DNA from: Ornithodoros turicata | Taxonomy: Eukaryota > Arthropoda > Arachnida > Ixodida > Argasidae | Assembly: GCF_037126465.1 (NCBI RefSeq) | Contig: NC_088204.1 | Span: 73,593,807 to 73,657,806 of the forward strand | Direction: 5' to 3' | DNA: 64,000 bases | Position numbers and translations under genes: made by a program | The notes under the pieces: model-generated | Told to the model about the DNA's origin: nothing | Database searches by the model: none | Seen by the model: only the letters and a program-made list of their open reading frames with translations | Shown: positions 3,691-62,049 of the stretch, piece after piece | Numbering within the stretch: position 1 is the stretch's first letter | How the letters are laid out: every line of letters begins with the position of its first letter

Positions 3691-5827
3691 GTTTTGGCAT
3701 TCTTCATATTTTTACACACCAATTTTAATATCGCTACTTGAAGAAAGGAATCCACCCACTATCCACCCCAATGTCAATATGGGCGTCATTTCGAAGATCA
3801 ATGCCAACACATATTGTGATTGATACTGACAGCAATCTTCTCACCCTTCTTCGAGGTCTCACAACAATGTGCGAAACAAACAACAAATCACTCCGCGTGA
3901 CAGGAAGAAAAGAAGTATAATATCGAGCTTTCAATATCCTTGGGTGAATGGATCGGATAAGTTTGATCAGCAAGAAAGGAACTTATAGCTCTTGTGTCCC
4001 AGCCCATTGTTGCAAGCCGCGTAATTGTTATCCGCTATATTGATATGTCTCCGGTTCATATTTCCAATTTCAACGGAGCGTTCCCCATTTTGAGTACGCG
4101 AGCACCCTACATGTAGTGCTTCTACTTAGAGCGTCGGGGACTATATATAGGTTAATGGAGCTATAGTGCCATGTACGGGGCAAATAGATATTGTGTGTCG
4201 AAGTTCCGTTGTTCTAGGAAAGCTGTATTGTGAAGAAGTGGTGAATAACTTTGTTTTCGAGGCACGTGCGGACTATGTACGACAACATGCAGCTACATGA
4301 ATGAGGATGGGATGAGGTAGTATGAATGAAGGGCTGTGTTGACCTTTTTGATTGACTGATTCACGTAGGAGTATGTGAAAGCATGCTCATTGATCTCGTG
4401 TCTCTGGTGTCTCCATTATCGCGGAATATTCGCGCTGTCTTTTGTGTTAACTGGGTCGTGTGCTATGACGGCAGTGTATAAGGAATTCAGGGTTACCAAA
4501 TGGTAAATCCTGCATGTAGCCAAAATGTAACCAGCTGAGGCTCTCTGTAGCCAAAAGAGATAGCCAAGACTTCATAATCTTTTTCTCATTTCTAATATTT
4601 TCTAAACTTTCAACATATCTTATCTCCCCTTACCGCAACAACTTCGCTTATCAACTTCAAAATTATTTCCCGAGCGATACGCAGGGCCGAAAAATTGATC
4701 AGCGCCGGATACTGATCAAGCGCCTGTATCAGTTTTGGTTTTCGGCAACTATTCCTACCCAAGCAGCACAATGTACTGAAAGTCGAGTGCAATAGGGGTG
4801 GACGGTATGTGTGTTATCAATGTTCCTTAGCTTCAAGACTCTGTTCAAGGTCTTCCACCTACCCGTCCACCCCTATTGCACTCGACTTTCAGTACATTGT
4901 GCTGCTTGGGTAGTAAGAACAAATTATTGTGATTAAAAAAAAGTACTGTACTCTTTGGCACACTTCTAAACGCTTATGAAATGCAATAGTATTACAGAAG
5001 ACGAAGGACGACGACTCGATTGCGGATGCGAAAGAAGCACACACATGGGTGGGTGGGTGTTAATGTCTTAATCTGCTCCTCGTTGTTGGCCACACATAGG
5101 TGGGCATCGTCACAACGATAGCAAAACAAAACGGATGGAGGATAAATGGTGGAGATGGGTAAAACGCGCGTGAGTCCGGCGGGAAGCGCAAAGGGTTACA
5201 AGGGTCGTTGTGCAAGATCCGCCTCCTTCAGGAAGAGAACAAGGTTTCTTGCTTTAGCTGAACTTTCGGCCTAAGAATTCCACCGGGGTAAAGGATATCC
5301 GCCGGCGTGCCAGAGCTGGAGTGGGGGAGGAGGGCTTCGTGAGCAGAATGGCGAGCTCGCCATTATGGCAGGATGTGCTCGCGTGTTTCCGGTTGTTGAG
5401 AAGTTCCGGTGACGTGACACGGCTTCACCGAGTCCTCAAAAAGTGCGTTAGAGTAAAGTTGCTGCTGATGTCGTTCCTGACAAGAAGTACGTGTGTGTGT
5501 GTGGTGTCATCGCCCCCGGGAAAATAATTTTAGGGAATGAACGAACCTTGTGTCGCCATAGTATATGCACACCATGACAAATGCAGGAAGAGATTACGCA
5601 CGTTACAAACGCTGATACCATAGAGGGACGAGACACTTTTGTTGATCTTTTTGACACGTAGTTGAGAAAAAAAGATGGAGGCATGCTCGAAAAATTGTGC
5701 ATCTCTCTTTTCTTCCTGTTTCGCGGTGTTACTCAGGAGGACATGGAGGGGTATAGCCGAACAGCCAAATAGCCAGCTCCGACATTAAGGAGCCAGCTGG
5801 GACCGCAAGTAGCTAAAGATGGTTACT
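3691..5827. other. No gene recognised
   Basis: Apart from the MITE at 4755-4913 I see nothing supportable; short frames on both strands lack conserved motifs. Confidence 0.5.
4755..4913. mobile_element. 159-bp MITE with 51-bp inverted repeats, copy 1
   Basis: The two arms (4755-4805, 4863-4913) begin CTACCCAAGCAGCACAATGT and are fully complementary. TA flanks CCCAAGCAGC on each side. The second copy at 13392 has the inner loop in the opposite orientation. Confidence 0.85.
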
Positions 5828-5920
5828 TGTATGCACACCTGGCCGATGGCCCAATAAGGCCGAAACAGCTCTCCAGTACTGGCGTGGCGACGTTTGAGCA
5901 TATATATATATATATATGGA
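5828..5920 (+). repeat. Degenerate hammerhead remnant ending in (TA)n
   Basis: The stretch shares the GGCCCAATAAGGCCGAAACA stem II/core and the downstream GGCGACGTTTG of the 235-bp unit. The CTGATGA core has decayed to CCGATGG and the cleavage triplet to CTC, so it should be inactive. It runs into a (TA)n tract just like the end of the 235-bp array, suggesting an older insertion with the same end structure. Confidence 0.6.
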
Positions 5921-6188: not shown

Positions 6189-6239
6189 CTCATAGGTCGA
6201 GGGAAGTGCAAAAAATCAAACGACCACGAAGCTTTACCG

Positions 6240-6489
6240 TTGTGGAAGGAAAAAGACGCGGACAACAGATTTTAGGGAAGTTAGAAATACTAGTTCATTT
6301 AATGGGCAGAAATTAAAAGTTGAATGAAAAAAGGGTCGACGCTTCGTGAATATATGGTCGACGTTTCGACAGTGCCATTGTCGAAACGTCGACCCCTTTT
6401 TTCATTCAACTGTGATTTTCTGCCCATTAAATGAACTAGTGTTTCTAACTTCCCTAAAATCTGTTGTCCGCGTCTTTTTCCTTCCACAA
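6240..6489. repeat. Penelope-like fold-back with palindromic hammerhead half-sites
   Basis: Two arms (from 6240 and ending 6489) are near-perfect reverse complements for about 115 bp each. They meet at a palindrome around 6354-6392 in which the stem II/GAAAC/GTCGACC part of a hammerhead is mirrored. The complete CTGANGA core is missing on both sides. The right end passes into (TA)n at 6491, the left is preceded by (TA)n at 6161-6187. Interpreted as two truncated Penelope-type ends joined head to head; no reverse transcriptase is present. Confidence 0.55.
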
Positions 6490-6507
6490 CTATATATATA
6501 TATATAT

Positions 6508-6582
6508 ACGTCGCCCACCTACGCATTGCTGATGAAGGCCCAATAAGGCCGAAACAGCTGTCCAATGCTGGTGTGGCGACGT
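6508..6582 (+). ncRNA. Hammerhead ribozyme, type I, unit 1
   Basis: Outer stem I ACGTCGCC (6508-6515) pairs with GGCGACGT (6575-6582); inner stem I GCATTG (6523-6528) pairs with CAATGC (6563-6568), leaving an internal loop between them. The core CTGATGA is at 6529-6535. Stem II is GGCC/GGCC (6537-6540 with 6547-6550) with loop CAATAA. GAA is at 6551-6553, and stem III ACA/TGT surrounds a two-base loop. Predicted cleavage is after C6562 (GTC). One extra A (6536) sits between the core and stem II, a departure from the canonical fold. The stem III sequence ACAGCTGT is self-complementary, so a dimeric ribozyme is plausible. Confidence 0.75.
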
Positions 6583-6742
6583 TTGGGACTTATAAACATA
6601 TGTTCAACGTGCAGCCAAAGAGCCTAGGCTATTTTTTTCACTTAATACTTTACTGGCTTCGCACTGGGCTTTCAGAGGTGAGTTACTCACCCTGACGGGA
6701 GGACATCACGTTCCACGTGACCTTCCGCCGCCACTCGCTCAA

Positions 6743-6817
6743 ACGTCGCCCACCTACGCATTGCTGATGAAGGCCCAATAAGGCCGAAACAGCTGTCCAA
6801 TGCTGGTGTGGCGACGT
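6743..6817 (+). ncRNA. Hammerhead ribozyme, type I, unit 2
   Basis: Same sequence as the unit at 6508. The core starts at 6764 and predicted cleavage is after C6797. Confidence 0.75.
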
Positions 6818-6977
6818 TTGGGACTTATAAACATATGTTCAACGTGCAGCCAAAGAGCCTAGGCTATTTTTTTCACTTAATACTTTACTGGCTTCGCACT
6901 GGGCTTTCAGAGGTGAGTTACTCACCCTGACGGGAGGACATCACGTTCCACGTGACCTTCCGCCGCCACTCGCTCAA

Positions 6978-7052
6978 ACGTCGCCCACCTACGCATTGCT
7001 GATGAAGGCCCAATAAGGCCGAAACAGCTGTCCAATGCTGGTGTGGCGACGT
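6978..7052 (+). ncRNA. Hammerhead ribozyme, type I, unit 3
   Basis: Same sequence as the unit at 6508. The core starts at 6999 and predicted cleavage is after C7032. Confidence 0.75.
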
Positions 7053-7212
7053 TTGGGACTTATAAACATATGTTCAACGTGCAGCCAAAGAGCCTAGGCT
7101 ATTTTTTTCACTTAATACTTTACTGGCTTCGCACTGGGCTTTCAGAGGTGAGTTACTCACCCTGACGGGAGGACATCACGTTCCACGTGACCTTCCGCCG
7201 CCACTCGCTCAA

Positions 7213-7287
7213 ACGTCGCCCACCTACGCATTGCTGATGAAGGCCCAATAAGGCCGAAACAGCTGTCCAATGCTGGTGTGGCGACGT
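7213..7287 (+). ncRNA. Hammerhead ribozyme, type I, unit 4
   Basis: Same sequence as the unit at 6508. The core starts at 7234 and predicted cleavage is after C7267. Confidence 0.75.
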
Positions 7288-7447
7288 TTGGGACTTATAA
7301 ACATATGTTCAACGTGCAGCCAAAGAGCCTAGGCTATTTTTTTCACTTAATACTTTACTGGCTTCGCACTGGGCTTTCAGAGGTGAGTTACTCACCCTGA
7401 CGGGAGGACATCACGTTCCACGTGACCTTCCGCCGCCACTCGCTCAA

Positions 7448-7522
7448 ACGTCGCCCACCTACGCATTGCTGATGAAGGCCCAATAAGGCCGAAACAGCTG
7501 TCCAATGCTGGTGTGGCGACGT
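7448..7522 (+). ncRNA. Hammerhead ribozyme, type I, unit 5
   Basis: Same sequence as the unit at 6508. The core starts at 7469 and predicted cleavage is after C7502. The body of this unit carries the single substitution noticed in the array. Confidence 0.75.
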
Positions 7523-7682
7523 TTGGGACTTATAAACATATGTTCAACGTGCAGCCAAAGAGCCTAGGCTATTTTTTTCACTTAATACTTTACTGGCTTC
7601 GCACTGGGCTTTCAGAGGTGAGTTACTCAACCTGACGGGAGGACATCACGTTCCACGTGACCTTCCGCCGCCACTCGCTCAA

Positions 7683-7757
7683 ACGTCGCCCACCTACGCA
7701 TTGCTGATGAAGGCCCAATAAGGCCGAAACAGCTGTCCAATGCTGGTGTGGCGACGT
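7683..7757 (+). ncRNA. Hammerhead ribozyme, type I, unit 6
   Basis: Same sequence as the unit at 6508. The core starts at 7704 and predicted cleavage is after C7737. Confidence 0.75.
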
Positions 7758-7917
7758 TTGGGACTTATAAACATATGTTCAACGTGCAGCCAAAGAGCCT
7801 AGGCTATTTTTTTCACTTAATACTTTACTGGCTTCGCACTGGGCTTTCAGAGGTGAGTTACTCACCCTGACGGGAGGACATCACGTTCCACGTGACCTTC
7901 CGCCGCCACTCGCTCAA

Positions 7918-7992
7918 ACGTCGCCCACCTACGCATTGCTGATGAAGGCCCAATAAGGCCGAAACAGCTGTCCAATGCTGGTGTGGCGACGT
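7918..7992 (+). ncRNA. Hammerhead ribozyme, type I, terminal unit 7
   Basis: Complete ribozyme in the last, truncated unit; core at 7939, predicted cleavage after C7972. Only about 18 bp of body follow before the (TA)n tract, so this copy closes the array as the 3' ribozyme. Confidence 0.75.
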
Positions 7993-8004
7993 TTGGGACT
8001 TATA

Positions 8005-8041
<37 letters not shown>

Positions 8042-8159
8042 GAAGCTTAAGAGGGCGGTTGTCCACGAGAATGAAACAGAAAAAATCAGAAGACGACAAA
8101 GAGCTTACAGGATATACGGTAAGAGAAGAAAAGAGTGGATTGGCACGAAATGATATAAA

Positions 8160-8555
8160 TACAAAATAAACGAGACGTGAAGAACCGAAGTAGAAGTATT
8201 AAGTAAAAAATAAAAGGATTTATTATGAATTAAACTAGTTAATTAAAATGCCCTAACGGAAATTTACATGCAGTCTACGTTGCGGCGGAGCCTCCGCCTT
8301 CTTCAGGACAAAAGTATTAAGTGGCCTCGTAGCGCCACGTGGCGCGACCTCCTCCATTGTGACGTCACATTTGACTTTCGGAAGCCCTATGCGGCCACTT
8401 AATACTATTGTCCTGAAGAAGGCGGTGCCTCCGCCGCAACGTAGACTGCATGTGAATTTACGTCAGCCCATTTTAATTAACTACTTTAATTCATAATAAA
8501 TCTTTTTTTTTACTTAATACTCCTACTTCCGTTGTCCGCGTCTCGTTTATTTTGT

Positions 8556-8556
<1 letters not shown>
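8160..8556. repeat. Penelope-like fold-back with hammerhead-like motifs in both arms
   Basis: Inverted arms of about 150 bp, each carrying the motif CTGAAGAAGGCGG...CCGCCGCAACGTAGAC (left arm on the minus strand at about 8273-8312, right arm on the plus strand at about 8410-8447), flank a GC-rich centre of about 100 bp. The hammerhead GAAAC box reads GCAAC here, so self-cleavage is doubtful. The right end enters a long (TA)n tract at about 8560, as in the neighbouring fragments. Confidence 0.5.
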
Positions 8557-8604
<48 letters not shown>

Positions 8605-8605
<1 letters not shown>

Positions 8606-8755
8606 CCGTCCTGACGAAGGCGGAGCTTCCGCAGCAACGTTGACTCCCCCCTTAACTTTCCACTAGTAAATAAATAACTCCCCCTTTTTCTACTTCCTAC
8701 ATCTTCGTTGTCTGCCTCATATTTTGTTAGTACCTATATATATATATATATATAT
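8605..8755 (+). repeat. Penelope-like terminal fragment with hammerhead-like motif
   Basis: GTCCTGACGAAGGCGGAGCT at about 8608 opens a hammerhead-like motif with the same GCAAC variant as the neighbouring fold-back. It is followed by about 90 bp and then (TA)n at 8733-8754. Same orientation and same end structure as the right arm at 8410-8556. Confidence 0.45.
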
Positions 8756-12265: not shown

Positions 12266-12477
12266 CACCACGATGAATGGGCTCAAAAGCAGCTTGAAAT
12301 GAAATCAGTTTCGCTACTGCATAATCAAGTCGATTAACCTTTACTGATCTGCCGTATAGGTGACTTAGATATGTGATGCCTAGTATTAGTGGGAAACAGA
12401 ATGTCAACACGTTTAACATTCGGCAGGACGAACGCGTGCATCATCAGCATGAAAGCTGGAAGTCACAGAAAAGGTTA

Positions 12478-12549
12478 GCCAGCTGTAGGACTCGAACCCA
12501 CATCTTCTGGATTGCCGGTCCAGGGCTCTACCAATTGAGCTAAGCTAAC
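12478..12549 (-). repeat. tRNA-like sequence, probably the head of another SINE
   Basis: A perfect 72-nt cloverleaf on the minus strand: acceptor GTTAGCT/AGCTGGC with two G-T pairs, D stem GCTC/GAGC, anticodon stem CTGGA/TCCAG, T stem GTGGG/CCTAC. The seven-base anticodon loop CCGGCAA would give anticodon GGC (Ala), but position 33 is C instead of T and the usual Ala G3-U70 pair is reversed. These defects, and a related flanking segment (GGAAGTCACAGAAAAG) repeated at about 12893-12910, make a SINE head more likely than a working tRNA gene. Confidence 0.6.
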
Positions 12550-29783: not shown

Positions 29784-29815
<32 letters not shown>

Positions 29816-29975
29816 AAGTGAAATAATAAGACTTGGACTACAGATTACAGGAACGTTAACAAAAACTAATTTATTTATTGGGCAATTTAACACATAGATT
29901 AAAAAAAGAATGGTCGACGTTTCGACAGTGGCACTGTCTTCGTCAGGACTGCATATGTTTGCACATGTGCCCACA
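29784..29975 (-). repeat. Penelope-like end with hammerhead motif at a (TA)n tract
   Basis: The minus strand at 29912-29949 reads CTGACGA-A-GACAGTG-CC-ACTGTC-GAAAC-GTC-GACC: a well-kept hammerhead core with a strong stem II, a minimal stem III (ACGT, no loop) and a GTC cleavage site. It is followed on that strand by an AT-rich tail that ends in (TA)n (29784-29812). Stem I is short, so activity would probably need a dimer. Confidence 0.6.
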
Positions 29976-36450: not shown

Positions 36451-37677
36451 ATGGAACTGTACACCACAAGCCCGGAGACAAACGGTCCACATCACGACCA
36501 TCGGCTACTACCTCATCCCACCCTGTTTGCATCCACATTACCCACCATACTGCAGACAAGCTCTCACCTCTGCAACGCCACCTCGTGCGACAACCTAAGC
36601 GGTGATCCACTCATAAACCCCGCAGCTTCCCAGCTGAACCCTGGCCTGGAACTGTTCTTAGCGAACCAAATCGTCGAAGAGATTTTAGCCGTCGTCGTCC
36701 CTATCCTATTCGGCGCCATCGCCATTGTTGGCTTCTTCGGAAACGCCCTGGTGGTTATGGTAGTCTTGTGCAACCCGCAAATGCGTTCCACGACGAATAT
36801 ATTAATCATAAACCTCGCCATGGCCGATCTGCTCTTTATAGTCTTCTGCGTACCGTTCACCGGCTGGGACTACACGCTAAATTACTGGCCTTTTGGAGAC
36901 GTCTGGTGTCGTATAGTTCAGTACTTAGTCATAGTCTGCGCCTACGCCAGTATCTACACCCTGGTCCTGATGTCCCTGGACAGGTTCCTAGCTGTGGTTC
37001 ATCCGATCGCTTCGATGTCGGTCAGGACAGAACGAAACGCGTACATAGCCATATGTCTCACGTGGGTCGCCATACTTGTACTGTGCGTTCCTGCCCTGTT
37101 CGCTCACGGTATGGAAGTGGTTGGAAGCTATTCAGCCTGCATGTTCAGAACCAGCGAAGGCTACAACTGGCCAGCCTTTCAGATATGCTTCTTCATGTCA
37201 TCGTACGTTATCCCCCTCTGCCTCATTTTCATATTGTACCTCCTCATGCTGAAGAGGCTCTGGTTCGGTGTCGCCCCGGGAGGGCGAGTCAGCGCCGACA
37301 GCGTCAGGTCAAAGAAGCGCGTCACGAGGCTAGTGGTCGTCGTGGTCGTCGTCTTTGCCGTGTGCTGGTGCCCAATTCAAGTGGTGCTCGTTCTGAAAAG
37401 CGTCGATTCCTACGGCCCGTACATGACCCCGCCGAGAATCGTGATCCAGATCGCGTCTCAAATCTTGGCTTACACGAACTCGTGCGTGAATCCGTTCCTC
37501 TACGCGTTCCTGTCTGAGAACTTCCGGAAGAGCTTCCGAAAGATCATTCTCTGTAGCTCAAAGACAAAGGAACGAGGTCGCACTCGAACGCGCGAGGACG
37601 CTGAACGTACGGAGCGTGAAACGATGACGAACTGCAACGGCAGCAAGTCCGCTAAGATAGTCAACGATATCGTGTAG
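36451..37677 (+). CDS. Allatostatin-A receptor-like (galanin-type) class A GPCR
   Basis: A 408-residue rhodopsin-family receptor with all seven membrane segments: TM1 about 79-105 (GN98), TM2 113-136 (D126 in NLAMAD), TM3 152-178 ending in DRF (177-179, a DRY variant), TM4 197-218 (W205), TM5 242-267 (P255), TM6 293-318 (CWCP 305-308), TM7 330-354 (NPFLY 347-351). C153 and C230 can form the usual TM3-ECL2 disulfide; N42 and N48 are N-glycosylation sequons; helix 8 (FRKSF) is followed by C368, a possible palmitoylation site, and a basic tail. The overall pattern, especially the WPFGDVWC, VHPIASMS and YTNSCVNPFLYAFLSENFRK stretches, matches arthropod allatostatin-A receptors, the relatives of vertebrate galanin receptors, which bind FGL-amide peptides and usually signal through Gi/o at the plasma membrane. 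The ATG has a good context (A at -3, G at +4). The frame stays open to the splice acceptor at 36416, so an upstream start in an earlier exon is possible. No frameshift or internal stop is seen. Confidence 0.93.
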   Translation: MELYTTSPETNGPHHDHRLLPHPTLFASTLPTILQTSSHLCNATSCDNLSGDPLINPAASQLNPGLELFLANQIVEEILAVVVPILFGAIAIVGFFGNALVVMVVLCNPQMRSTTNILIINLAMADLLFIVFCVPFTGWDYTLNYWPFGDVWCRIVQYLVIVCAYASIYTLVLMSLDRFLAVVHPIASMSVRTERNAYIAICLTWVAILVLCVPALFAHGMEVVGSYSACMFRTSEGYNWPAFQICFFMSSYVIPLCLIFILYLLMLKRLWFGVAPGGRVSADSVRSKKRVTRLVVVVVVVFAVCWCPIQVVLVLKSVDSYGPYMTPPRIVIQIASQILAYTNSCVNPFLYAFLSENFRKSFRKIILCSSKTKERGRTRTREDAERTERETMTNCNGSKSAKIVNDIV

Positions 37678-54208: not shown

Positions 54209-54508
54209 TTAAAGGAGCTAGGAAAGCACTTTAATCACTAGCATTTTTTTTAAACCAAGTGGTTAATAAGCATATTAAAATGCACCATGCGAAGTAATAC
54301 TATCAACAGGTGCATTAATATCCCAGAATTCGATTTTGAAAATCGCGACCGTGCGCAACGGTGGCAATACCCGGAACGAGCCGTCGAGCCGCTTGCGTCA
54401 TTTTGGCGTGAGAAAGGTGGAGCCCCTGATTGGTTTCGAAGAACGTCGTCTGCTATTTTTCACTCGGAACCCCGCTGCAACGGTGGAAGGCGTTTCTTTT
54501 GCTTTTTC
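54209..54508 (+). repeat. MITE-like repeat (TTAAAGGAGC family), left half, split by the fold-back
   Basis: Starts TTAAAGGAGCTAGGAAAGC and continues with the poly-T, CGCGACCGTGCGCAACGGTG and CTGATTGGTTTCGAAGAACG segments shared with the copies at 48.6 and 50.4 kb. It is cut at 54508 by the 3.8-kb fold-back insertion. A matching right half may be the stretch at about 59490-59800. Confidence 0.6.
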
Positions 54509-57500
54509 GGGTGTTGTTTCCAATGCAGCCCCCAATAGACGGATTATCTCCGATGAATAGAAGGATTAGCCATTGTGTAGGGTACACCACTAGAGGGCGC
54601 TACGAGCGACGCCTCACCACTAGGGGCCGCTGCTGTCGCATTCCGCGGATGACGTCATTGCTCCTTCGGGGAGCATGGTGAGAGATAGCGGGAGGCATTG
54701 GATGGCGATGCGAAATAGAGCGCCCCCTTGTGCAAGGCTGTGGTGGCGCTGCGGGCGACATGACAGACGCTCTCGGTGGCGGCTCTCCACGGCGGTGTCA
54801 TGGTCTCGTGACCGCGATACGCGGCGTCGGCGGCAAAAGGGTTTTGGGTCCAGCGTTGTGTACGAGTCTTTGAGCGAGTTTATATTAATCTCACTCCGTT
54901 TATTGTTCAACTGATGGTTGTTGTTTGAGAGCTCAATTGCTATGCTGTGAGATTGGGGTGTACGGCACGCATACGGCATACGACAATATAAATAAATAAA
55001 TATAAACAAAAGGACGTGCACGATAAATTACGCCACATTATTATGGCTTCCCGTGTTGCTACACTTTGCATTATAAAGGCGCTTTCGCTAACCAGTCCGT
55101 TCACAAACAGCCGTGTGCATCCCTTGGTGTATTTATTAGACTTGGATACTTTCCTTTTAATTGCCTAATAACGCTTTTGTGACTCGAGCGCGTATATTAG
55201 AAGGCTCCAGACTCGCGCAATATTATTTTGGTGATGGCGCATATGTTCAGACAAGAGCGGAGGAAAGTTGTTCCCCCCCATTTGCTTTATGTATTTATTC
55301 ACCTCAGTATGTCATTCTCACATACTAGTTTAAATTTAATTAGCGATTAGTAATACTGCAGTATATGCAATTTAGCACACTACAGTGCTGTAAGATATAT
55401 TGTACAAGCGCCTTGGCTGCAGAATCACTGGGTGGATATCTGTAAAATTTTAGTGCCTTCTTTTCTGTGGTGGTCTCACTAATAGGGATTCAGTTAAGTG
55501 TTGTGGCAATTCCAATGTAAACAGTCATCTGCTATATTGGAAAGTGAGTGATTATGGTCAAACAAGTCAATTAACATGATACCTTCTACAATACCATCTG
55601 TGATTCCTAAATGTCAGTATACAACAAGTCAGTATATGACAAGGTATGAAGAAATGTTAACGTAGTGCATGCTATTCAAAGCAAGTTCTTCCACATCCCC
55701 CCCCCATCTACAAACACCCAGAAAACAAAAACAAAAAAACTGGTCTTGGGTTTGCCTCTGGAAACATAATTTAACTACACAAATGCAGATATGTGCAGCC
55801 AAACACATTTGCCATAAGGAAAGCATGAAGATTATTGCAGTTGCAACGGTCATGTCAGTAGGTCATGTACATCTTGGTATTTTCGAAATTTCCCAAACAT
55901 TTCCATGTCTTTTATATTCAACATACTGGACATCTAGTGTGCAACACTTGATATCGAATCAAAATCTGAGCCAGTATTGGGTCATGAACACACCGGTGTA
56001 ACATGAGCAACAAAAAGGCAGACCACATGTCAACAAGTTGCAAACCGTTGTTTCATCTTGCACATTTATCATGCTCATCTAGGTATTTTTGAAATTTCAA
56101 AAATACCTAGATGAGCATGACAAATGTGCAAGATGAAACAACGGTTTGCAACTTGTTGACATGCCGTCTACCTTATTGTTGCTCAGGATACACCGGTGTG
56201 TTCATGACCCCATACTGGCTCAGATTTTGATTCGATATCAGGTGTTGCACACTAGATGTCCAGCACGTTGAATATAAAAGATATGGAAATGTTTGAGAAA
56301 TTTCAAAAATACCTAGATGAGCATGACAAATGTGCAAGATGAAACAACGGTTTGCAACTTGTTGACATGTGGTCTGCCTTTTTGTTGCTCATGTTACACC
56401 GGTGTGTTCATGACCCAATACTGGCTCAGATTTTGATTCGATATCAGGTGTTGCACACTAGATGTCCAGCACGTTGAATATAAAAGATATGGAAATGTTT
56501 GAGAAATTTCAAAAATACCTAGATGAGCATGACAAATGTGCAAGATGAAACAACGGTTTGCAACTTGTTGACATGTGGTCTGCCTTTTTGTTGCTCATGT
56601 TACACCGGTGTGTTCATGACCCAATACTGGCTCAGATTTTGATTCGATATCAGGTGTTGCACACTAGATGTCCAGCACGTTGAATATAAAAGATATGGAA
56701 ATGTTTGAGAAATTTCAAAAATACCTAGATGAGCATGACAAATGTGCAAGATGAAACAACGGTTTGCAACTTGTTGACATGTGGTCTGCCTTTTTGTTGC
56801 TCATGTTACACCGGTGTGTTCATGACCCAATACTGGCTCAGATTTTGATTCGATATCAAGTGTTGCACACTAGATGTCCAGTATGTTGAATATAAAAGAC
56901 ATGGAAATGTTTGGGAAATTTCGAAAATACCAAGATGTCCATGACCTACTGACATGACCGTTGCAACTGCAATAATCTTCATGCTTTCCTTATGGCAAAT
57001 GTGTTTGGCTGCACATATCTGCATTTGTGTAGTTAAATTATGTTTCCAGAGGCAAACCCAAGACCAGTTTTTTTGTTTTTGTTTTCTGGGTGTTTGTAGA
57101 TGGGGGGGGGGGATGTGGAAGAACTTGCTTTGAATAGCATGCACTACGTTAACATTTCTTCATACCTTGTCATATACTGACTTGTTGTATACTGACATTT
57201 AGGAATCACAGATGGTATTGTAGAAGGTATCATGTTAATTGACTTGTTTGACCATAATCACTCACTTTCCAATATAGCAGATGACTGTTTACATTGGAAT
57301 TGCCACAACACTTAACTGAATCCCTATTAGTGAGACCACCACAGAAAAGAAGGCACTAAAATTTTACAGATATCCACCCAGTGATTCTGCAGCCAAGGCG
57401 CTTGTACAATATATCTTACAGCACTGTAGTGTGCTAAATTGCATATACTGCAGTATTACTAATCGCTAATTAAATTTAAACTAGTATGTGAGAATGACAT

Positions 57501-58300
57501 ACTGAGGTGAATAAATACATAAAGCAAATGGGGGGGAACAACTTTCCTCCGCTCTTGTCTGAACATATGCGCCATCACCAAAATAATATTGCGCGAGTCT
57601 GGAGCCTTCTAATATACGCGCTCGAGTCACAAAAGCGTTATTAGGCAATTAAAAGGAAAGTATCCAAGTCTAATAAATACACCAAGGGATGCACACGGCT
57701 GTTTGTGAACGGACTGGTTAGCGAAAGCGCCTTTATAATGCAAAGTGTAGCAACACGGGAAGCCATAATAATGTGGCGTAATTTATCGTGCACGTCCTTT
57801 TGTTTATATTTATTTATTTATATTGTCGTATGCCGTATGCGTGCCGTACACCCCAATCTCACAGCATAGCAATTGAGCTCTCAAACAACAACCATCAGTT
57901 GAACAATAAACGGAGTGAGATTAATATAAACTCGCTCAAAGACTCGTACACAACGCTGGACCCAAAACCCTTTTGCCGCCGACGCCGCGTATCGCGGTCA
58001 CGAGACCATGACACCGCCGTGGAGAGCCGCCACCGAGAGCATCTGTCATGTCGCCCGCAGCGCCACCACAGCCTTGCACAAGGGGGCGCTCTATTTCGCA
58101 TCGCCATCCAATGCCTCCCGCTATCTCTCACCATGCTCCCCGAAGGAGCAATGACGTCATCCGCGGAATGCGACAGCAGCGGCCCCTAGTGTTGAGGCGT
58201 CGCTCGTAGCGCCCTCTAGTGGTGTACCCTACACAATGGCTAATCCTTCTATTCATCGGAGATAATCCGTCTATTGGGGGCTGCATTGGAAACAACACCC
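54509..58300. mobile_element. 3.8-kb fold-back element with 1.59-kb inverted arms and 8-bp target duplication
   Basis: The left arm (54509-56094) and right arm (56713-58300) are reverse complements in register; I found only scattered substitutions and a two-base difference in a C/G run (55696 region versus 57102 region). The centre (56095-56712) is three extra copies of a 206-bp unit whose fourth copy forms the inner end of each arm. Ends read GGGTGTTG...CAACACCC and are flanked by identical 8-bp GCTTTTTC (54501-54508 and 58301-58308). No transposase-like frame was recognised; the arms contain only unrecognised short open frames. The structure resembles Foldback-type DNA elements; 8-bp duplications occur in several superfamilies (hAT, P, Merlin), so I leave the class open. 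Confidence 0.85.
56095..56918. repeat. 206-bp tandem repeat in the fold-back centre
   Basis: Four units begin at 56095, 56301, 56507 and 56713; one further unit lies inverted at about 55889-56094. Units two and three look identical. The two arm units share variants (for example CAAGTGTTGC and TGTTGAATATAAAAGACATG) absent from the middle ones, so the arm copies are each other's closest relatives and the middle ones expanded separately. Confidence 0.85.
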
Positions 58301-58308
58301 GCTTTTTC

Positions 58309-61204: not shown

Positions 61205-61860
61205 CCCGTTTATTTATTTATTTATTTATTTACATACGTTGAGGACCCCCAAGGGGGTATTACACAACGGAGGGGCAAGGAAAAAGACAAGGAAACAAAG
61301 CATGTAAAAAGAAAACAACAAAAACAAACAGACAAATAGCAAAAATATTGCAACAGATGTACAACCAATATAAAACAATAGATTTGCAGTGCTCACTAGA
61401 AATGACATTGGATTAATGCAAAAGGAAAAGACGGTCGAGGTGAGAAAATAAAAGAAAAGAGGTGGCGGAAAGTGACGCTGGAGCGATCATGAGATGTAGG
61501 CTATGTTTTGTAGTGTTGGGTGATGGCAGCCTTAAAGTGGGCGGGGTCTTTCATAAAAACGATCGACTCTGGCAGGTGATTCCAGTCCCGAATTGTTTTA
61601 GGAATGAAGGAGTACATGAAAGAATTAGTATGACATTGTGGGGTTCTAATCTTGTGAGCGTGGTCGTGACGTGAAGAGATGTATTCCGCAGGGGGGAGAA
61701 GACGATCACGAGTGTTTCTGTTATAGAATAGCTTATGGAAAAGACACAGACGGGAGACCTTTCGTCTGAATGTGAGATGGTCCATGCCAAGGTCTTCTTT
61801 TAGTCCCGAGACGCTACAATCCGAGTAGTATATATAGGTTGAGAGACTCAAACAATGAGA
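61205..61860 (-). pseudogene. CR1/L2-like retrotransposon 3' end with (AAATA/AAAT)n tail
   Basis: Minus-strand frame to 61501 keeps GLKEDLGMDHLTFRRKVSRL and, near its end, SFIPKTIRDWNHLPES, the typical C-terminus of CR1/L2/Jockey polyproteins, ending in a stop at about 61501. A 270-bp 3' UTR follows and ends GTCCTCAACGTATGT(AAAT)n at 61208-61234. Strongly 5'-truncated. Confidence 0.7.
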
Positions 61861-62049
61861 AACTCAGACATTGCCACCAGGGCAGCGCTACCGTCGCGCC
61901 GACTTTTTTCGCGTATTTTTCCTCGCGCGCGGCAGGCGGCGCTCGGGTGGAGGCTCTTACCGGTGGGCGGAGCGTGGCCGGAAGGTTGCGTGCGCGCTTA
62001 CCCGCTCACATTTTTCAGCCTGGGCCGACTTCTTTCATCATTTCTCAAT

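Follow-up and report, generated by a model that had tools for sequence, protein, structure and literature searches.

Tandem hammerhead arrays in the tick Ornithodoros turicata: a candidate retrozyme with insertion ends like those of Penelope-like elements

Introduction

As described in the available text of Cervera and de la Pena 2020 (PMC7229834), metazoan retrozymes lacking long terminal repeats (non-LTR retrozymes) carry a type I hammerhead ribozyme in units of ~170 to 400 nucleotides (nt) and range from dimers to long multimers. What mobilizes them was left open in the portions consulted of that paper and of PMC7761336, both of which proposed Penelope-like elements (PLEs) as a strong candidate helper on account of shared hammerheads, tandem copies, and co-existence. 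For a PLE of Anolis, Frangieh et al. 2024 (PMC11167929, again in its available portions) reported that the purified protein (PAc) initiates reverse transcription from two neighboring internal positions, which accounts for the optional 30- to 40-bp (base pair) tail of genomic copies. According to the same report, the protein also extends both strands of the target, has a preference for AT-rich DNA, and is predicted to form a dimer. Here, we analyze a 64,000-nt stretch of the genome of the soft tick Ornithodoros turicata (contig NC_088204.1; "the window" denotes this whole stretch), which holds at positions 6508 to 8011 a tandem array of hammerhead-bearing 235-bp units. An earlier note on the sequence had proposed the array as an animal retrozyme candidate, a view supported by the size of the unit, the type of the ribozyme, the tandem layout, and dispersed copies that look retrotransposed. 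We consider it probable (roughly 0.78) that the array is an insertion of a non-autonomous O. turicata retrozyme whose RNA circles were copied into DNA by PLE machinery, with priming on both strands of the target.

Results

The array and its hammerhead ribozymes

Tandem Repeats Finder delimits a repeat at 6508 to 8011 with a period of 235, 6.4 copies, and 99% matches. Together with seven matches to the Rfam model RF00163, one every 235 bp, this bears out the tandem 235-bp units with seven hammerheads described in the earlier note. The six full units differ by a single substitution, at unit position 183 in the fifth unit, and the GC content of the array is 51.5%. No stop-to-stop frame of at least 110 amino acids, the only frame length considered, overlaps the array; to that extent the earlier description of a body without coding capacity holds, and the array is therefore not itself a PLE. 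(TA)n tracts border it on both sides, as had been noted, and are read here as the preferred target. The parts referred to below are as follows.

6508 to 8011, plus strand: candidate retrozyme array, six full 235-bp units followed by the first 94 nt of a seventh (repeat and unit analysis)
6491 to 6508, unstranded: (TA)n 5' of the array
8008 to 8038, unstranded: (TA)n 3' of the array
8005 to 8011, plus strand: 3' end of the array, at end site A (unit position ~94)
6634 to 6650, plus strand: zone of end site B within the first unit (unit positions 127 to 143), the 3' end at other loci
6563 to 6797, plus strand: predicted 235-nt monomer (folding as a circle)
5845 to 5911, plus strand: decayed retrozyme fragment, 85% identical, unit positions 27 to 94, with a site A end in (TA)n
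6508 to 6582, plus strand: first of seven type I hammerheads, the others following in steps of 235 bp (RF00163, folding, compensatory changes)
6508 to 6515 with 6575 to 6582, plus strand: distal part of stem I of the first hammerhead, 8 bp
6523 to 6528 with 6563 to 6568, plus strand: proximal part of stem I, 6 bp
6537 to 6540 with 6547 to 6550, plus strand: stem II, 4 bp
6562 to 6563, plus strand: predicted first cleavage site, GUC / C (placed by the GTC)

Each unit contains the core CUGAUGA/GAAAC and the triplet GUC. The core, the triplet, and the two paired stretches of stem I (measured here as 6 bp and 8 bp) had all been recognized before; stem III comprises 2 bp closed by the palindromic loop AGCU. 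As read from the sequence, the GTC triplets end at 6562, 6797, 7032, 7267, 7502, 7737, and 7972, in agreement with the earlier positions, which were given individually up to 7502; cleavage there is a prediction. The seven matches to RF00163 (Hammerhead_1) begin with 6523 to 6568 and all score 28.2 bits with an E-value of 2.5e-4 (1,701 bases searched). The covariance-model match proposed as a check is thus significant, though below the curated Rfam gathering cut-off of 34 bits, which is why a default Rfam scan of the window lists no hammerhead. The pattern CTGANGA-N6..30-GAAAC-N0..10-GT occurs nine times in the window, seven of them in the array, versus 0.69 expected. An 80-nt ribozyme segment has a folding z-score of -4.3, and the 235-nt circle is predicted to fold with -83.8 kcal/mol (z -5.2 versus 100 shuffles) and 64% of its bases paired. 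Viral contigs searched with an exact pattern of the ribozyme gave 0 matches.

Co-variation was analyzed in an alignment of 19 ribozymes chosen for diversity, i.e., 16 of the 235-nt family, diverged subfamilies included, and three of a related 289-nt family described below. Across these sequences, 91.2% of the cells in the hammerhead helices are paired, versus 27 to 46% when the partners are slid by one to three columns, and both sides have changed at nine of the 20 base pairs. The weakest helix is stem II (75% paired), to which a register shift of the 289-nt family in this part of the alignment contributes. The units thus appear to encode type I hammerheads, as supported by the compensatory changes and by the related family, which scores above the cut-off.

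Copies elsewhere in the genome

The genome searched for copies of the array comprised 1.07 gigabases. At least 111 matches were obtained and 39 of 561 candidates were scored, so that the copy number is a lower bound. The count of genome copies suggested in the earlier note was carried this far, 38 loci being examined: the window and 37 fetched regions (handles beginning with L below). These loci contain 70 retrozyme segments with a median of 5.1 and a maximum of 33.9 units (L013); 53 of the 70 segments have at least two units. The 52 arrays with full units comprise 341 of these, whose median identity amounts to 99.2% inside an array and 96.2% from one array to another. In the 48 arrays of at least three units, 219 variants are fixed in an array, 371 are private to one unit, and 183 are partly shared; 14 of the 48 have no partly shared variant.

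Ends, target, and duplications

In four of the 70 segments, the 3' end coincides with the edge of a fetched region or with a gap in the assembly, leaving 66 that could be scored. Of these, 55 lie in two zones, 30 at site A (unit positions 90 to 98, ~39 nt past the cleavage site) and 25 at site B (unit positions 127 to 143, 72 to 88 nt past it). The two zones, which were drawn after the data had been seen, make up 11% of the unit by uniform expectation (binomial 8e-42); in a zone-free Kuiper test, none of 5,000 simulations was as extreme. The 5' ends, in contrast, are uniform over the unit (Kuiper p 0.44, n = 68 scorable). A (TA)4 or longer tract abuts 40 of the 66 3' ends, versus 1.8% of 28-mers elsewhere in these loci. 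Of the 26 ends without (TA)n, 17 still fall in the A or B zone, and the zones are therefore not mere chance matches to (TA)n.

The segments form 47 insertions, six of which reach an edge or gap. Among the other 41, (TA)n flanks both sides in 13, one side in 15, and neither side in 13. Three of the 13 insertions without (TA)n (L022, L025, and L030) are bounded by duplications of 11 to 14 bp, versus 6 of 5,000 control pairs. Because of the two fixed 3' end sites, the uniform 5' ends, and these duplications, the copies look retrotransposed. As read from the genomic copies, the end pattern is a hallmark of target-primed reverse transcription that begins at fixed sites and does not run to completion. 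As a separate observation, the arrays of L012 (end at 4157) and L024 (end at 2600), on different contigs, both end at unit position 42 and continue into near-identical non-retrozyme sequence, which may point to a shared insertion at a later time or to a copy of chimeric origin.

Head-to-head pairs of arrays

Pairs with a minus-strand array followed by a plus-strand array were found 22 times within 80 bp, and once more, in L010, with 272 bp in between; pairs in the opposite order number two within 80 bp and four within 300 bp. Three head-to-head pairs extend past the fetched stretch. The junction coordinates differ in all 23 pairs, so the pairs look like separate events. At the 10 direct junctions, one to nine bases are shared, with a mean of 2.9 versus 0.67 by chance; the 12 pairs with 1 to 55 nt of filler were left out of this test. 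Both outer ends lie in the zones in 12 pairs (11 of the 22 and L010), and 11 of these combine one A with one B end (p = 0.003 for random assortment).

The arms of 20 of the 23 pairs share at least 60 unit positions and could be compared. The arm consensus is identical in eight of these, and in 13 the arms are nearer to each other than to any of ~59 other arrays. For arms that differ in start site yet carry identical private variants, the simplest account is that both are complementary DNAs (cDNAs) of one RNA.

A second family with 289-nt units

A second hammerhead family, with units of 289 nt and 47.8% GC, turned up in the flanks of the fetched loci. Its segments include the following.

L009, 3978 to 4664: 289-nt family segment
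L032, 488 to 1031 and 2841 to 3236: 289-nt family segments
L015, 51 to 537: 289-nt family segment
L016, 150 to 999: 289-nt family segment
L033, 2340 to 3066: 289-nt family segment
Other loci: further segments

The two families are related, with an alignment z-score of 8.8 for the whole unit and 5.1 for the body without the ribozyme (300 shuffles each). The 289-nt hammerhead scores 37.5 to 41.2 bits with RF00163 (cut-off, 34) at six places, i.e., three in L009, two in L032, and one in L036; at five others (L015, L023, and L032), the best overlapping model is RF02275 with 38.5 to 40.8 bits, below its cut-off of 52. The 3' ends of 16 of 20 segments again fall in two zones, four at positions 31 to 41 and 12 at 125 to 142. 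Three head-to-head pairs have both ends in the zones, two being A/B and one B/B.

PLEs in the same loci

Several fragments bear a CYGANGA...CGNAACGT motif, presumably linked, partly in view of a passage of PMC7761336, to the published minimal PLE hammerheads; they end in (TA)n at two distances. In seven loci, Rfam did not call these motifs hammerheads (E-values up to 1). PLE-type elements of the window are listed below; its segment from 5.8 to 9 kb has the look of nested insertions by elements that target (TA)n.

29812 to 29949, minus strand: fragment of a PLE 3' end that bears a CTGACGA...CGAAACGTC motif and has its site A end in (TA)n
6189 to 6490, unstranded: PLE-type head-to-head insertion adjoining the array, the left arm ~50 nt longer (B) than the right (A), both ending in (TA)n
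8153 to 8563, unstranded: second PLE-type inverted insertion with hammerhead-core-like motifs at 8306 (minus) and 8413 (plus), end sites not classed
8608 to 8660: fragment with a hammerhead-core-like PLE motif (8608 to 8645) beside (TA)n, end not classed

Reading frames were located by translating upstream of the hammerhead-core-like motifs. The Pfam cut-off for GIY-YIG (22.6 bits) was reached in three frames, one of four in one set and two of three in another; among these, a 203-amino-acid frame upstream of the motif at L021, 3792 to 4400 (minus strand), scores 28.0 bits, and at L046, 392 to 1615 (minus strand), it lengthens to 408 amino acids and scores 26.3 bits. Among the best 120 of 494 relatives in a protein search, many carry PF00078, the reverse-transcriptase family, and some also PF01541; two of these 120 are named O. 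turicata, one of them with PF00078. On the basis of the GIY-YIG frames and of these relatives, the fragments are called PLEs. For the tick frames themselves, Pfam reported no reverse-transcriptase model, scans of the flanks for PLE reverse-transcriptase motifs gave no match in one case and one unconvincing match in another, and PDB searches with two of the frames yielded nothing useful.

Twenty-five PLE 3' ends were classed by eye, of which 14 belong to a short site and 11 to a long one, 25 to 50 nt apart; in four PLE families, the long end of one copy was the cut point of the query and matches by construction, its (TA)n neighbor having been read directly. Edge-cut or repeated copies were excluded, and L046 4100 to 4202, window 8608 to 8660, and both arms of window 8153 to 8563 were not classed. 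All five readable PLE head-to-head pairs (L015, L026 at ~1470 to 1690, L031, L032, and window 6189 to 6490) combine one short with one long end. Pooled over the 235-nt family, the 289-nt family, and the PLEs before the fifth PLE pair was added, 17 of 19 pairs are mixed (p 4e-4). The PLEs in these loci show the same insertion anatomy as the retrozyme, namely two-site ends, (TA)n, and mixed pairs.

Other features of the window and loci

An open frame at window positions 36451 to 37674 resembles allatostatin-A receptors, which are G-protein-coupled receptors, and has a 76% identical relative named O. turicata. A near-perfect inverted repeat at 54508 to 58301 (1,232-nt arms at 99%, plus inner arms) surrounds a 206-bp tandem array at 56091 to 56945 and could be a foldback-type transposon. 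A tRNA-Ala with the anticodon GGC lies at 12477 to 12549 on the minus strand (ARAGORN; Rfam tRNA, 57.9 bits). In L009, a short palindromic, (TA)n-flanked element at 3837 to 3953 forms a hairpin that matches many Rfam microRNAs, all below their cut-offs.

Discussion

Proposed origin of the arrays

In the mechanism that we propose, the array would be transcribed, each type I hammerhead would cleave to give 235-nt monomers, and a host ligase would join these into circles. A Penelope-like reverse transcriptase/GIY-YIG endonuclease would cut AT-rich DNA, with a preference for (TA)n, and the cut 3' end would prime reverse transcription at either of two places, ~39 or 72 to 88 nt past the cleavage site. 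Copying would continue for several turns of the circle, and the resulting tandem array would be fixed at its 3' end but could stop anywhere at its 5' end; the circularity of the template thus accounts for both the tandem layout and the arbitrary 5' ends. Often, both cut ends would be extended, one from A and one from B, and the cDNAs joined 5' to 5' into head-to-head arrays. We infer the transcription, the cleavage, the circularization, the role of a PLE as helper, which PLE it would be, and the order of the steps.

The paired A/B ends in the genome suggest two enzymes on one RNA, with one target strand for each. Specifically, two PLE-type subunits may copy one circle at once, from A and from B, each primed by a different strand of the symmetric (TA)n target, an idea to which we give somewhat less than an even chance. 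Frangieh et al. (PMC11167929) report that the start sites used by the Anolis PLE protein do not apparently differ from one strand to the other, so that the pairing is deduced from genomic ends. On this same reading, head-to-head arrays with an A end on one arm and a B end on the other would be the product of two-sided insertions from the same circle, and two-ended rolling-circle target-primed reverse transcription would be common to animal retrozymes and PLEs.

Several observations weigh against the proposed origin. Cleavage and RNA circles are themselves predictions from the DNA. Folding prediction does not give the hammerhead as the lowest-energy structure of the ribozyme; a competing hairpin, in which the catalytic core is base-paired, is more stable by 5.2 kcal/mol (-36.9 versus -31.7), as calculated with tertiary contacts ignored. 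Eleven of the 66 3' ends fall outside the A and B zones, and 10 of the 13 insertions without (TA)n have no duplication of at least 11 bp, sharing 3 to 7 bp instead. At least one outer end lies outside the zones in eight of the 22 close head-to-head pairs, one pair (L040) is A/A, and in seven of the 20 scored pairs (L021, L026, L028, L031, L036, L040, and L044) another array equals the closeness of the partner arm. Partly shared variants occur in 34 of the 48 arrays of at least three units, most of them in L014, L023, and L028, and a single circle does not predict them unless they are later in origin. Between the A-B tails of the two retrozyme families and three PLE tails, no significant similarity emerged (six comparisons by shuffling, p 0.06 to 0.89), the best values being 0.06 for the 235-nt and 0.14 for the 289-nt family, and sequence similarity therefore does not identify the helper PLE. 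Finally, the sample of 38 loci is biased toward long, similar copies.

Alternative explanations

The near-identical head-to-tail units, the length of some arrays (33.9 units in L013), and the fact that many arrays are mixed would suit satellite DNA, grown and homogenized by unequal crossing-over or rolling-circle DNA amplification, in which the hammerhead is incidental or a relic. We regard this as very improbable. Crossing-over would not be expected to produce scattered loci whose 3' ends are fixed at two sites and whose 5' ends are uniform, nor duplications at three of the 13 non-TA insertions, nor inverted arm pairs that differ in their outer ends, and the paired positions of the ribozyme co-vary; where a satellite would be a homogenized tandem array without an insertion signature, these loci carry one. 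Fixed 3' ends and 5' truncation are also products of long interspersed nuclear elements (LINEs), and a frame at window positions 61501 to 61863 is LINE-like by eye. That the retrozyme was moved by a LINE-type element, with the inversions arising from LINE-style twin priming, nevertheless seems improbable to us: the inverted segment left by twin priming is not known to end at the canonical 3' site, whereas both outer ends are canonical in 12 retrozyme pairs, and the PLEs of the same loci share the two-site ends, (TA)n, and mixed pairs.

A closer variant retains mobilization by a PLE and replaces the circle with a linear multimeric transcript. The Anolis protein inserts unprocessed RNA in vitro, hammerhead cleavage not being needed according to the available text of PMC11167929, and the partly shared variants in 34 of the 48 arrays are in keeping with such a template. 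The array of 33.9 units, the 14 arrays without any partly shared variant, and the identical arms in eight of 20 pairs point the other way, although a homogeneous linear multimer would yield the same, so that neither long, uniform arrays nor identical arms decide against it. On balance we consider a linear template unlikely, and prefer the reverse transcription of RNA circles by PLE machinery.

Comparison with known systems

The retrozyme class and the proposal of PLE mobilization are already known. Neither the tick families nor their insertion anatomy were found in a search of the open-access literature, which reached mostly titles and the beginnings of abstracts and left subscription papers and preprints uncovered; for hammerhead ribozymes in ticks or Ixodes, this search returned a single report, on R2, and no tick is named in the titles and opening lines of abstracts returned for retrozymes together with Penelope. 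Retrozyme scars that match the PLE scars of the same genome constitute physical evidence for the mobilization proposal, and open it to a test that takes a single purified protein and a single RNA. How A and B ends are paired also bears on PLE insertion, about which relatively little is known according to the available portions of PMC11167929, and suggests that the two target strands draw on two start sites within a single RNA.

Like the metazoan retrozymes in the available text of PMC7229834, the tick family has a type I hammerhead and a unit (235 bp) within the range of ~170 to 400, close to the 220 to 240 bp of A. millepora; it likewise forms tandem dimers to multimers in a genome that also harbors PLEs, and its duplications, where present, exceed 4 bp (11 to 14 bp in the tick). 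It differs in its GC content of 51.5%, compared with a reported value below 50% (below 45% in a figure legend), which we treat as a description of known retrozymes rather than a defining feature. The two fixed 3' end sites, the paired-end head-to-head insertions, and the (TA)n target find no mention in the available text of that paper, and the tick family is described here from DNA sequence. The short, tetraloop-closed stem III of two base pairs recalls the axolotl motif HHR_Amex2, as described in the portions consulted of PMC7229834; the axolotl and newt hammerhead repeats are, however, from vertebrates, 330 to 350 bp long, and, as far as known, unrelated. With the plant LTR retrozymes (PMC4918200, available text), the tick family shares non-autonomy, a hammerhead, and circular RNA intermediates, the latter predicted in the tick. 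The plant elements differ in their LTRs, type III hammerheads, RNAs of 600 to 800 nt, and proposed Gypsy-type mobilization, as stated in the accessible parts of PMC7229834 and PMC7761336.

The likeness to Anolis PAc, as far as the available text of PMC11167929 describes it, extends to two adjacent sites with an optional tail, extension of both strands, an AT-rich target, and a hammerhead upstream of the start sites. Unlike PAc, the tick retrozyme is a 235-bp unit without a long reading frame (none of at least 110 amino acids), and its tail is not significantly similar to the three tick PLE tails compared (best p 0.06).
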